Source of the DNA: Flavobacteriia bacterium
GTDB lineage: Bacteria > Bacteroidota > Bacteroidia > Flavobacteriales > Flavobacteriaceae
NCBI GenBank assembly: GCA_004293045.1
Contig: RDXY01000006.1
Location: forward strand, 1 to 64,000
Direction of reading: 5' to 3'
Length of the DNA stretch: 64,000 bases
The notes beneath the pieces are model-generated. The model was not told the DNA's origin, did no database searches, and saw only the letters and a program-made list of their open reading frames with translations. This document shows positions 47,852 to 54,957 of this stretch, piece by piece. How positions within the stretch are numbered: the first letter of the stretch is position 1; each line of letters begins with the position of its first letter. The translations under genes and the position numbers were made by a program.

Positions 47852-49105
47852 ATGGACAATCATTCACCTGCAAAACAAACTACTTTCTATGCCATCGGTC
47901 TTAGCTATAAAAAAGCGGATGCCGAAATTAGAGGTAAGTTTAGTTTAGACGCTACTTCCAAAGCAACCCTTTTGAAACAGGCAAAAACAAACGGGATTGA
48001 AAGTCTGATTGTTACTTCCACTTGCAACAGAACTGAAATTTACGGTTTTGCACAGCATCCTTTTCAATTGATTCATTTATTGTGCGAAAACAGTTTAGGA
48101 ACGGTTGAAGAATTTCAAAAATACGCTTACGTATACAAACAAAAGGAAGCTTTAAACCATATGTTTCGGGTAGGAACGGGTTTGGATAGTCAAATTTTAG
48201 GAGATTTTGAAATCATTGCTCAACTTAAAAATGCTTTTGTAGAAAGTAAAAAACACAATTTAGCCAATGCGTATTTAGAGCGATTGGTAAATTCGGTGAT
48301 TCAAGCGAGTAAGAAAGTTAAAAATGAAACTGAAATTTCAAGTGGTGCTACTTCCGTTTCCTTTGCAGCCGTTCAATATATTTTTAAGCATGTTGAAGCC
48401 ATTTCTAAAAAGAATATTTTACTTTTTGGAACAGGAAAAATTGGAAGAAATACTTGTGAAAATTTGGTAAAACATTCTAAACACGATCAAATTACGCTAA
48501 TTAATAGAACAAAAGATAAGGCCGAAAAATTAGCCAAAAAACTCAATCTTATTGTTAAAGATTATTCCGATTTGCAAATAGAATTACAAAAGGCAGATGT
48601 AGTGGTTGTAGCGACTGGCGCTCAAAATCCTACAGTGGATTTAGACATATTAAATCTAAAAAAACCTTTGTTGATTTTGGATTTATCAATACCTAAAAAT
48701 GTCAACGAAAACGTAAAACAAAATCCCTTAGTTACTTTAGTTCACATGGATTATTTATCGGAAATTACCGATGAAACTTTAGAAAACAGAAAACTACATA
48801 TACCTGCTGCCGAAAAAATAATTACAGAAGTGTTAACTGAATTTTTAACTTGGTCAAAAGGCAGAAAATATGCGCCCACCATTCACGCTCTAAAGGCCAA
48901 ATTAAACGCCATTAAAGAATCTGAAATCAATCATTTAAAAAAGAAAAATGCCGATTTCAATGAAGAATATACCGAAATTGTTACCGCAAAATTAATTCAA
49001 AAAATAACCAGTCATTTTGCCAATCATTTAAAAGATGACAACACCGTTGTGGACGAAAGTGTAGAGTGGATTAATAAAGTTTTTCAAATAGAAAACCAAA
49101 AATAG
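47852..49105 (+). CDS. hemA: Glutamyl-tRNA reductase
   Basis: TSTCNRTEIYGF, LDSQILGDFEIIAQLKNAF, LLFGTGKIGRNTCENL, LILDLSIPKNVN. Confidence 0.96.
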   Translation: MDNHSPAKQTTFYAIGLSYKKADAEIRGKFSLDATSKATLLKQAKTNGIESLIVTSTCNRTEIYGFAQHPFQLIHLLCENSLGTVEEFQKYAYVYKQKEALNHMFRVGTGLDSQILGDFEIIAQLKNAFVESKKHNLANAYLERLVNSVIQASKKVKNETEISSGATSVSFAAVQYIFKHVEAISKKNILLFGTGKIGRNTCENLVKHSKHDQITLINRTKDKAEKLAKKLNLIVKDYSDLQIELQKADVVVVATGAQNPTVDLDILNLKKPLLILDLSIPKNVNENVKQNPLVTLVHMDYLSEITDETLENRKLHIPAAEKIITEVLTEFLTWSKGRKYAPTIHALKAKLNAIKESEINHLKKKNADFNEEYTEIVTAKLIQKITSHFANHLKDDNTVVDESVEWINKVFQIENQK

Positions 49106-49119
49106 TATATTTGTTTTCG

Positions 49120-49139
49120 AAACATTAAGAAATTAAGTT
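49120..49139. repeat. Left arm of a perfect 20-bp inverted repeat flanking the GxxExxY gene
   Basis: AAACATTAAGAAATTAAGTT; exact reverse complement at 49574-49593. Confidence 0.9.
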
Positions 49140-49151
49140 GCTTTAAGCAAA

Positions 49152-49562
49152 ATGAATATGACAAAAAAAGAAGTAACCAAATTATCTTTCGAAATTACTG
49201 GATTTGCAATAAAAGTTCATAAAAACCTTGGTCCAGGGTTACTTGAAAGTGTTTATGAGCAATGCTTAAAGTTTGAGTTAGAAAGGAATGGTTATGATGT
49301 AAAACAACAAGTTGTTGTTAAAATTGAATATGATGATTTGGAACTTGAATCAACATTAAGAATTGATTTATTGGTAAACGATACTGTAATTATAGAATTA
49401 AAAACAGTTGAAAGTATTTTGCCCATTCACGAAGCACAACTTTTAACTTATATGAAATTATTAGAAAAACCTCAAGGATTGCTGATAAATTTCTACACAA
49501 CAAATATTACAAAATCTTTGAAACCATTTGTGAATGAATATTTTTCAAGACTTGATGACTAA
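49152..49562 (+). CDS. GxxExxY family protein
   Basis: ITGFAIKVHKNLGPGLLESVYEQCLKFELERNGYDVKQQ...LRIDLLVNDTVIIELKTVESILPIHEAQLLTYMKL: GxxExxY motif and a PDDEXK-like D...ELK core. Confidence 0.92.
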   Translation: MNMTKKEVTKLSFEITGFAIKVHKNLGPGLLESVYEQCLKFELERNGYDVKQQVVVKIEYDDLELESTLRIDLLVNDTVIIELKTVESILPIHEAQLLTYMKLLEKPQGLLINFYTTNITKSLKPFVNEYFSRLDD

Positions 49563-49573
49563 ATACTTAATGA

Positions 49574-49593
49574 AACTTAATTTCTTAATGTTT
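49574..49593. repeat. Right arm of a perfect 20-bp inverted repeat flanking the GxxExxY gene
   Basis: AACTTAATTTCTTAATGTTT; exact reverse complement of 49120-49139. Confidence 0.9.
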
Positions 49594-49607
49594 TAAAATA
49601 TAAAATA

Positions 49608-50534
49608 GTGAGTAAAACCATACGAATAGGAACACGCGATAGCGAATTAGCCCTTTGGCAAGCCAAAACAGTTGAAAAACAGTTGAATGATTTGGGCTAT
49701 AATACAGAAATTATCGCAGTAAAATCCGATGGCGATATTGTTTTAGACAAACCCTTATACGAATTAGGAATTACCGGAATTTTTACAAAAACGTTAGATG
49801 TAGCAATGATTCAAGGCAAAATTGACATGGCAGTACATTCTATGAAAGATGTGCCAACACTTTTACCTATTGGTATTGTACAAGGCGCCGTTTTGGAAAG
49901 AGCATCAGCATTTGATATTTTGGTTTACAAAGAAAATTTAGAGTTCTTAAACGAAGAAAACGCTTCAATTGCGAGTAGTAGCTTGCGAAGAAAAGCAAGT
50001 TGGTTGCACAAATACCCAAGTCATAAAATAGAAGATATTCGTGGTAATGTAAATACGCGCCTGCAGAAAGTAGCTGATTCAAATTGGGGCGGCGCTATTT
50101 TTGCAGAAGCCGGTTTAGATCGCATCCACTTAAAACCAGAAAAAGCAATTCTTTTAGATTGGATGATTCCTGCACCCGCTCAAGGGGCTATGGTAGTGGT
50201 ATGTAATGCAGAGGATTTCTTTTCTTTAGATGCCGTTTCGCAATTAAATCATATTGAAACAGAAATATGTACGTATATAGAACGTCAGTTTTTAAGAACG
50301 TTAGAAGGAGGTTGTACAGCACCAATTGGAGCAATTGCTACGTATAATGAAAAAGAAGATGTAATTGATTTTACAGGTGTTTTATTATCAATAGACGGAA
50401 AACAAAAATTAGAAGTTACTAAAACCGTAGCGGTTTCGGAATGGAAAAAATTAGGATTTCATGCCGCTCAAGAAATTTTGAGTAATGGTGGCGAATCCAT
50501 AATGTTGTCCATTAAAAACGAAATAAAAAAATAG
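49608..50534 (+). CDS. hemC: Hydroxymethylbilane synthase (porphobilinogen deaminase)
   Basis: RIGTRDSELALWQAKTVEKQL, AVHSMKDVPT, SSSLRRKASWLH, APAQGAMVV, LRTLEGGCTAPIGA; GTG start. Confidence 0.97.
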   Translation: MSKTIRIGTRDSELALWQAKTVEKQLNDLGYNTEIIAVKSDGDIVLDKPLYELGITGIFTKTLDVAMIQGKIDMAVHSMKDVPTLLPIGIVQGAVLERASAFDILVYKENLEFLNEENASIASSSLRRKASWLHKYPSHKIEDIRGNVNTRLQKVADSNWGGAIFAEAGLDRIHLKPEKAILLDWMIPAPAQGAMVVVCNAEDFFSLDAVSQLNHIETEICTYIERQFLRTLEGGCTAPIGAIATYNEKEDVIDFTGVLLSIDGKQKLEVTKTVAVSEWKKLGFHAAQEILSNGGESIMLSIKNEIKK

Positions 50535-52973: not shown

Positions 52974-53876
52974 ATGAAAGACCAATTTTACCAATACATA
53001 CAAACCCTTCAAGATCAAATCTGTAAAGGATTAGAGGATATTGATGGCTTTACTAAATTTCGAGAAGACATTTGGGAACGACCAGAAGGCGGTGGCGGAA
53101 GAACACGCGTAATTGAAAATGGAGCTGTTTTTGAAAAAGGTGGCGTAAATATTTCAGCGGTTCACGGGAAACTACCCGAAGCTATGCAAAAAATGTTTAA
53201 TGTTGGCGAAGCCGATTTCTTTGCTTGCGGATTGAGTTTGGTGATTCATCCAAAAAATCCAATGGTGCCAACGGTGCATGCCAATTGGCGTTATTTCGAA
53301 ATGTATGACGATAACGGCAATGTAATTAATAGTTGGTTTGGTGGCGGACAAGATTTGACGCCCTATTATTTATTTGAAGAAGATGCGATTCATTTTCATC
53401 AAACTTGTAAAACTGCTTGTGACAAACACAATCCAGATTTTTATCCGAAATACAAAAAACAATGCGATGCCTATTTTTGGAACGCACATAGAAATGAAGC
53501 GCGAGGAGTAGGCGGGTTGTTTTTCGATTATTTGAAAGAAACGGAAACCATGAAAATGGAAGATTGGTTCAATTTCGTTACAGAAGTTGGGAATTCTTTC
53601 CTTGAGGCGTATTTGCCAATCGTAACAAAAAGAAAAGACTTGCCGTATTCAGCTGAGCAAAGAACTTGGCAAGAAATCCGTCGTGGACGTTATGTCGAGT
53701 TCAATTTGGTTCACGACAAAGGCACGTTATTTGGTTTAAAAACCAACGGAAGAATTGAAAGTATTTTGATGAGTTTACCACCCCACGTACAATGGCATTA
53801 CGACCATCATCCCGTGTCGGGAAGTGAAGAAAAAAAAATAATAAAAGTATTAGAAAAACCTATAAATTGGGTATAA
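52974..53876 (+). CDS. hemF: Oxygen-dependent coproporphyrinogen III oxidase
   Basis: WERPEGGGGRTRVIENGAVFEKGGVNISAVHG, PMVPTVHANWRYFE, WFGGGQDLTPYY, RGVGGLFFDYL. Confidence 0.97.
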   Translation: MKDQFYQYIQTLQDQICKGLEDIDGFTKFREDIWERPEGGGGRTRVIENGAVFEKGGVNISAVHGKLPEAMQKMFNVGEADFFACGLSLVIHPKNPMVPTVHANWRYFEMYDDNGNVINSWFGGGQDLTPYYLFEEDAIHFHQTCKTACDKHNPDFYPKYKKQCDAYFWNAHRNEARGVGGLFFDYLKETETMKMEDWFNFVTEVGNSFLEAYLPIVTKRKDLPYSAEQRTWQEIRRGRYVEFNLVHDKGTLFGLKTNGRIESILMSLPPHVQWHYDHHPVSGSEEKKIIKVLEKPINWV

Positions 53877-53880
53877 ATTA

Positions 53881-53941
53881 AACCATTAAGAGATTAAGAA
53901 AATTTAGTCAAACCCTTAATAAACTAAATCCCTTAATGGTT
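53881..53941. repeat. Palindromic intergenic element between hemF and hemB
   Basis: AACCATTAAGAGATT (53881-53895) inverted against AATCCCTTAATGGTT (53927-53941), 14/15 match, with nested AATTTAGT/ACTAAAT; the arm resembles the GxxExxY flank (CATTAAGA[A/G]ATTAAG). Confidence 0.75.
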
Positions 53942-53958
53942 CAAAAAAATAAAATAGT

Positions 53959-54957
53959 ATGTTTCCATTACAAAGAGGACGTCGTTTAAGAATTAACGAA
54001 TCCATAAGAAGTTTAGTTCGCGAAACCACATTAAGTCCGGCCGATTTTATGTTTCCTATGTTTATTGCTGAAGGAGAGAATATTCAAGTTGAAATTCCAT
54101 CGATGCCTGGAATTTACCGTCGTTCGATAGATTTAACCGTAAAAGAAGTCCAAGAATTATTTGATTTAGGGATTCGTGCCGTGAATATCTATGTGAAAGT
54201 TAGCGAAGATTTAAAAGACAATACGGGCAAAGAAGCGTGGAATCCAAACGGATTGATGCAACAAGCTATTATTGCTATCAAAACAGCTTGCCCAGAAATG
54301 ATTGTGATGCCCGATGTGGCTTTAGATCCGTATTCTATTTATGGTCACGACGGAATTATTGAAAAGGGCGATGTGGCCAATGATGCTACTAACGAGGCGT
54401 TGGTAAAAATGGCGGTTTCTCATGCACAAGCGGGAGCTGATTTTGTAGCACCAAGCGATATGATGGACGGACGCGTATTGCGTTTGCGTCAAGGATTGGA
54501 TGCAGCAGGTTTCCAAAACGTAGGGATAATGAGTTATTCGGCGAAGTATGCTTCGGCTTTTTATGGTCCGTTTAGAGATGCCTTAGACAGTGCGCCAAGA
54601 GAATCGGATATAGCAGTGCCGAAGGATAAAAAAACGTACCAAATGGATTATGCGAATCGCATCGAAGCCATCAAAGAAGCCCTATGGGATGTAGAAGAAG
54701 GTGCCGATATGGTCATGGTAAAACCAGGAATTGCTTATTTGGATATTGTTCGCGAAGTAAAAAATGCGGTGAATGTTCCTGTAACCGTTTTTCATGTTTC
54801 TGGTGAATACGCCATGATTAAAGCCGCAGCCGAAAGAGGTTGGCTTGACCACGACAAAATTATGATGGAACAATTAATGTGTATCAAACGCGCCGGAGCC
54901 AGTTTGATTTCCACTTATTTTGCGAAAGAAGCCGCAATTTTATTAAAAAAACAATAG
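53959..54957 (+). CDS. hemB: Delta-aminolevulinic acid dehydratase (porphobilinogen synthase)
   Basis: RRLRINESIRSLVRETTLSPADFMFPMFI, DVALDPYSIYGHDGI, APSDMMDGRV, YSAKYASAFYGPFRDA, MVKPGIAYLDIV. Confidence 0.97.
   Translation: MFPLQRGRRLRINESIRSLVRETTLSPADFMFPMFIAEGENIQVEIPSMPGIYRRSIDLTVKEVQELFDLGIRAVNIYVKVSEDLKDNTGKEAWNPNGLMQQAIIAIKTACPEMIVMPDVALDPYSIYGHDGIIEKGDVANDATNEALVKMAVSHAQAGADFVAPSDMMDGRVLRLRQGLDAAGFQNVGIMSYSAKYASAFYGPFRDALDSAPRESDIAVPKDKKTYQMDYANRIEAIKEALWDVEEGADMVMVKPGIAYLDIVREVKNAVNVPVTVFHVSGEYAMIKAAAERGWLDHDKIMMEQLMCIKRAGASLISTYFAKEAAILLKKQ

Follow-up and report, generated by a model that had tools for sequence, protein, structure and literature searches.

GxxExxY genes and their palindromes as a candidate RAYT/REPIN-like pair with a predicted PD-(D/E)XK nuclease

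Genes for GxxExxY proteins, a widespread family with no settled role, mostly sit in the loop of a palindrome or between palindromes in Flavobacteriaceae and in other phyla, and the letters of these palindromes follow the protein clade. On balance, we favour the reading that GxxExxY genes and REP-like palindromes form a two-part system resembling RAYT/REPIN and run by a PD-(D/E)XK nuclease. Our point of departure is a 64,000-nt stretch of a Flavobacteriia bacterium assembly (contig RDXY01000006.1; hereafter the window), in which one such gene lies between hemA and hemC. The palindromes give this family a concrete substrate to test, and the combination of clade-matched palindromes and gene-free copies suggests a second, HUH-independent origin of REP-like repeats. 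The same layout joins GxxExxY with S23/IVP genes, which are known from the long-unexplained intervening sequences (IVSs) of 23S rRNA. Among open-access papers we found nothing that links GxxExxY or PF13366 to repeats; the family is mentioned only in passing.

A gene enclosed by inverted repeats

The GxxExxY gene of the window (49152..49562, plus strand; 136 aa, with a second in-frame ATG at 49158) lies between hemA (glutamyl-tRNA reductase; 47852..49105, plus strand) and hemC (hydroxymethylbilane synthase; 49608..50534, plus strand) and is the one ORF within the 502 nt that separate them. The first-pass annotation reported that a perfect 20-bp inverted repeat encloses this ORF, and its coordinates were all confirmed: AAACATTAAGAAATTAAGTT occupies 49120-49139, and its exact reverse complement occupies 49574-49593. 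This repeat is the outer part of a longer pair of 28-nt arms with 25/28 positions matched, formed by AAACATTAAGAAATTAAGTTGCTTTAAG (49120..49147, plus strand) and AAACATTAAGAAATTAAGTTTCATTAAG, the reverse complement of the right arm (49566..49593, plus strand). The perfect repeat takes up the first 20 nt of the left arm and the last 20 nt of the right arm, and the gene lies entirely between the two. Both arms are built from near-tandem ATTAAG units, with three ATTAAG-like units in the left arm. The arm pair scores 23, compared to no more than 12 in 28 windows of the same geometry at this locus and no more than 15.5 in 3000 shuffles of the flanks. An extra palindrome described beside the start codon, TTGCTTTAAGCAA, is indeed present at 49138..49150, though from the sequence and the arm alignment we take it most plausibly to be the inner end of the left arm after drift (TTTCATTAAG to TTGCTTTAAG).

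No target-site duplication was noted in the same annotation. The element is in fact bracketed by a direct repeat of 8 bp, AAAATAGT (49099..49106 and 49602..49609, both plus strand), which is a candidate duplication at chance level, as a match of equal length arises in 2.6% of shuffled flank pairs. A search for target-site duplications over 145 GxxExxY loci gave no general signal. Given this chance rate and the result over 145 loci, we do not count the repeat as evidence of duplication, and we reject target-site duplication as a general feature of these loci.

Most GxxExxY loci show such inverted repeats in their flanks. With an inverted repeat called at a score of at least 12 and neighbouring ORFs from the same loci as controls, flank-to-flank repeats are present at 79.6% of 103 intact Flavobacteriaceae GxxExxY genes vs 2.7% of 73 controls. 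Across phyla, in a sample that includes Chloroflexota and Planctomycetota genomes, the corresponding values are 67% of 73 genes and 2.1% of 143 controls. A clear inverted repeat is absent at about 20-30% of the GxxExxY genes in these two sets. The two other GxxExxY genes of the window genome, one intact and one broken by a stop, are also flanked by inverted repeats, with arm letters of the CGCAAGG type and ACACAGATT. The stop-broken third copy (L003; G000:C17:59092-59418) has nonetheless kept AAACACAGATT on one side and the reverse complement of this sequence on the other.

A short unit recurs about every 9-12 nt along the arms, and the unit letters found include CGCAAAG, CACAGAG, CACGGAT, CACGAAT, CGCAGAT, and ATTAAG. 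In most loci neither flank is palindromic alone; the two form a single split palindrome with the gene in its loop. Roughly half of the loci in the window's protein clade instead carry a complete palindrome on each side of the gene, and a rule that the gene always sits within one split palindrome fails there. A separate observation concerns a Sphingomonas parapaucimobilis plasmid (L312:1471-1899), where a GxxExxY gene with no detectable inverted repeat lies between fabD and fabG, in an essential operon.

The predicted nuclease and its parallels

The window protein matches the profiles PF13366 (E=1e-38; 132.7 bits vs a curated cut-off of 22) and TIGR04256 (E=2e-40; 137.6 bits vs a curated cut-off of 35). 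A PDB sequence search for GxxExxY returned no relative, and the structures nearest to an AF2 model of the protein (pLDDT 88, pTM 0.83) are Cas4 SSO0001 and lambda exonuclease. Columns containing E, D, ExK, Q, and Y (an acid, ExK, and QxxxY) are invariant across diverse members, and from general knowledge of PD-(D/E)XK nucleases we take these residues to be RecB/Cas4 motifs. On this modelling, GxxExxY is a PD-(D/E)XK fold with catalytic-type residues and a predicted nuclease activity. The Y1 HUH domain (PF01797) is absent from the window protein, in which PDDEXK_3 is the sole profile match. For the window's clade of GxxExxY proteins the median dN/dS, 0.045, indicates strong purifying selection; the protein is thus maintained and not decaying. 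Like Cas4, lambda exonuclease, and RecB, GxxExxY combines this fold with the acid-ExK-QxxxY residues, but it is a stand-alone protein of about 125-136 aa that is coded inside palindromes and in which no iron-sulphur cluster cysteines were noted.

In the reading we favour, the acting protein would be a small PD-(D/E)XK nuclease of the Cas4/RecB type, not an HUH transposase. Its gene lies between long palindromes, or in the loop of one, with arms made up of a 6-8-nt unit in rows. Most likely, the nuclease would recognise the palindrome that belongs to it in hairpin form, extruded or single-stranded, and would nick or trim it. Repair or replication could then copy or homogenise the palindrome at other intergenic sites, mostly without the gene and occasionally with it, and the nuclease would in this way be the cause of the repeats. 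Insertions would be tolerated in co-directional intergenic gaps, where we propose that they survive because no reading frame is broken and the operon transcript includes the gene. GxxExxY genes share the strand of both neighbours in 143/160 loci, compared to a baseline of 51% for gene triples of the window genome.

The first-pass annotation suggested a REP-associated cassette comparable to a RAYT. Much of this comparison stands: a small single- or low-copy gene is flanked by inverted palindromes, many gene-free palindromes associated with the gene occupy intergenic gaps of the same genome, palindrome letters track the protein clade, close relatives have empty sites, and a general target-site duplication signal is absent. 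The same hemA-hemC layout in 29 other sampled species, gene-free palindromes in that gap in further species, and two complete palindromes at about half of the clade's loci widen the picture beyond a single cassette. GxxExxY further differs from RAYT systems in that its protein is of the PD-(D/E)XK type whereas RAYT is a Y1 HUH transposase, in that its arms are longer and built of a repeated unit, in that several clades with different letters occur in one genome, and in that the gene often lies within the loop of a single palindrome. GTAG or CGTC is given as the foot tag of REP palindromes (PMC3733652). Neither tetramer is present in the window's two arms. The different enzyme thus places the GxxExxY system outside the RAYT family, though the logic is closely parallel. 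MITEs and small insertion sequences offer a looser comparison, with short elements, terminal inverted repeats, gene-free relatives, and empty sites in close relatives, but the GxxExxY elements have neither a known transposase nor a target-site duplication signal.

A different parallel underlies the main rival explanation, to which we assign a low but appreciable probability. Under this explanation the element is a parasite at the RNA level, similar to an IVS, whose arms pair into a hairpin in the operon mRNA with the gene in its loop. A double-strand RNase would act on the stem and excise or insulate the insert, much as RNase III excises 23S rRNA IVSs that carry an S23 ORF, and pairing of the arms would be maintained by selection on the RNA. 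RNA of the window element is predicted to close a stem of ~27 bp with the gene in its loop (z=-2.9, 0/100 shuffles), and the two arms of a locus resemble each other more than arms from different loci of one clade do (p=4e-7), also when the comparison is made at orthologous sites (p=0.019). The gene's strong bias towards the sense orientation inside transcription units is a further point in favour, as is the shared layout of S23/IVP genes in these genomes. The Coxiella IVS, which carries an S23 ORF and is cut by RNase III, has a 28-bp stem and tandem GACAGAT heptamers ahead of that ORF (PMC4990558). Both it and the GxxExxY element are inserted into a transcribed unit, have a long stem whose loop contains a short ORF, and carry tandem short units beside the start codon. 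GxxExxY, however, occupies an operon gap between hemA and hemC and not a 23S rRNA helix, its ORF is a predicted nuclease, and gene-free copies are numerous. Alone, the RNA explanation fails to account for the many copies that lack the gene yet match the protein clade in their letters, or for a conserved nuclease active-site pattern under strong selection, and some loci of the L002 clade have flanks that are each a complete, closed palindrome. It is nonetheless compatible with the nuclease-hairpin proposal, and the two are not exclusive.

S23/IVP genes, which encode four-helix bundles, have short-unit palindromes with letters of their own at 72% of 29 loci (score of at least 12). In Flavobacterium (L150-L179) these genes are bracketed by palindromes in operon gaps, with the arm letters AGTGATTAGT, CTTAGATT, GCTTTTGGC, and TCAAAG. 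The window genome contains 10 matches to PF05635 (S23/IVP). At G149:C9:501536-504749 (around L086), two S23/IVP matches flank a GxxExxY gene in a stretch of about 3 kb, which looks like clustering of such elements.

Palindrome letters, protein clades, and gene-free copies

Arm letters co-vary with the protein clade, as arm similarity correlates with protein identity over all loci (Mantel r=0.57, 0/2000) and at loci with unrelated neighbours only (r=0.32, 0/1000). Linkage alone, with arms and gene co-inherited, could yield part of this correlation.

The letters also recur away from the gene. In the window, a gene-free palindrome of the ATTAAG family (53878..53944) occupies the gap between a hemF-like ORF ending at 53876 and a hemB-like ORF at 53959, and a few further ones lie elsewhere in the window genome. 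This genome sequence is 1.68 Mb and 76% complete, and its repeat and gene counts are therefore lower bounds. Across 199 Flavobacterium genomes, a class-A dyad (CGCAARG-N2-5-CGCWARG) reaches 295 copies per genome, compared to 0-3 copies for a reversed control pattern; these counts come from fixed patterns and cover arms at gene loci as well. The DNA-pattern scan used alignment A2, the first ten-clade alignment having been too diverse. Of the gene-free copies sampled, many are long intergenic palindromes with the same letters as at gene loci. Two gene-free palindromes of other kinds were seen along the way: one with AGGGTTT and ACCTTAT units, unlike any GxxExxY locus examined (L213:18226-18366; G000:C17), and a distinct 57-nt palindrome, CTTCGACTCCGCTCAGCCTGACA with a short loop, beside a class-A repeat (L325:1124-1180; G125:C3).

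Repeats and genes co-occur: among the 199 genomes, frequent gene-free palindromes are almost confined to those with GxxExxY genes. The median class-A count is 0 in the 36 genomes without GxxExxY vs 9 in the 163 carriers (p=2e-11). Fifteen of the 163 carriers have no class-A repeats, and some genomes have them despite no detected GxxExxY (16 copies in G189 and 14 in G200). Among carriers only, a size-binned permutation associates clade A with class A (p=0.0002) and clade B with class B (p=0.0026), whereas the crossed tests of each clade on the other class give p=0.94 and 0.69. These clade tests cover repeat classes A and B, with per-genome values for them, for the comparison of carriers with non-carriers, and for the tree tests transferred by hand from count tables; the window's own ATTAAG class has only a handful of copies in its incomplete genome. 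With the HemA tree as a control, any GxxExxY and class A are concordant in 7.4 pairs and opposite in 0.4 (median p=0.03), and clade-specific co-occurrence stands at 6.4 to 1.5 pairs, which is not significant in this sparse and underpowered test (median p=0.125).

These data bear on a second rival, which we regard as improbable, in which palindromes and genes are independent residents: another agent, such as RAYT or replication slippage, makes the palindromes, and GxxExxY genes favour these as safe places to insert. In its support, there are far more palindromes than genes, several unrelated palindrome types occur gene-free in the hemA-hemC gap, and S23/IVP genes use other palindromes in a like manner. 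Yet RAYT number does not predict the repeats, as Y1 transposase count has no positive effect on repeat number over the 199 Flavobacterium genomes and RAYT-free genomes can be rich in repeats (166 in G123, 96 in G165, and 85 in G166). RAYT or its Y1 transposase is thus unsupported as the maker. Letters specific to the protein clade even at unrelated sites, together with the split of two repeat classes by clade, likewise argue against independence.

The hemA-hemC gap across species

None of the 29 genomes closest to the window by HemA has a GxxExxY gene in the hemA-hemC gap, and in the four closest the gap is 5 nt; empty sites thus exist in an initial test that took the closest HemA relatives only. 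Among the best 30 loci by protein search, the gene lies between hemA and hemC in 27, the window included, with ATTAAG-type arms at nearly all of them. A census of 142 genomes, skewed to those whose HemA is close to that of the window and those whose GxxExxY protein is, comprises 30 with the gene and ATTAAG palindromes, 78 in which the gap is 70 nt or shorter, and 34 in which it is longer; many of these longer gaps hold gene-free palindromes. Complete gene-free ATTAAG palindromes occur in the gap of G191, G214, and G166, and single ATTAAG arms in that of G163, G148, and G142 and in the short gaps of G234, G154, G237, and G137. One orthologous gap therefore alternates between gene with palindrome, palindrome only, and a short gap. 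A one-off recent insertion in its simple form was rejected, given the same hemA-GxxExxY-hemC layout in 29 other sampled species.

The window gene is 90% identical to the copy of G486, vs 73% for HemA of the same two genomes. Over the final 150 nt of hemA and the initial 150 nt of hemC, identity is 93-94% to gene-free G189 but only 78-82% to G486. Since the distant species resembles the window more closely in this gene than in the flanks, we infer from these sequences that the gene probably reached the same gap by horizontal transfer, leaving the flanks in place; repeated, independent clean losses are a less simple alternative. Spread by plasmids was set aside, with only 8/72,556 plasmid records matching the query used.

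An extension of the favoured nuclease-palindrome pairing, which we put forward tentatively and as the less probable of the two, is that a PD-(D/E)XK hairpin nuclease with a preference for rhythmic palindromes spreads a cross-phylum class of repeats, with unit letters particular to each clade and homing-like horizontal recolonisation of the hemA-hemC gap that leaves the flanks in place. It is very improbable that nothing moves and that an old hemA-GxxExxY-hemC operon with regulatory hairpins was inherited vertically and repeatedly lost, since the order's presence in 30/142 sampled species and the strong purifying selection on the gene are set against a window genome nested among 12 gene-free relatives on the HemA tree, a gene closer to G486 than HemA is with G189-like flanks up to the insert, a presence almost as scattered as shuffled labels (24 changes vs a mean of 27.7 and a minimum of 24), and gene-free palindromes with the same letters elsewhere in the window genome.

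Other gene-free palindromes in the hemA-hemC gap include CACGAATT types and a TATAAG variant (AAACCATATAAGTTATATAAGTTCATTTAA...) that fills the gap of 19 species without GxxExxY there (L376, L383-L386, L388-L390, L393, L394, L400, L403, L405, L407, L408, L413-L415, and L421). The TATAAG arm type was found at none of the GxxExxY loci examined. At one of these sites (L403, in G169), several TATAAG-type palindromes follow one another in a row within a gene-free gap of 498 nt.
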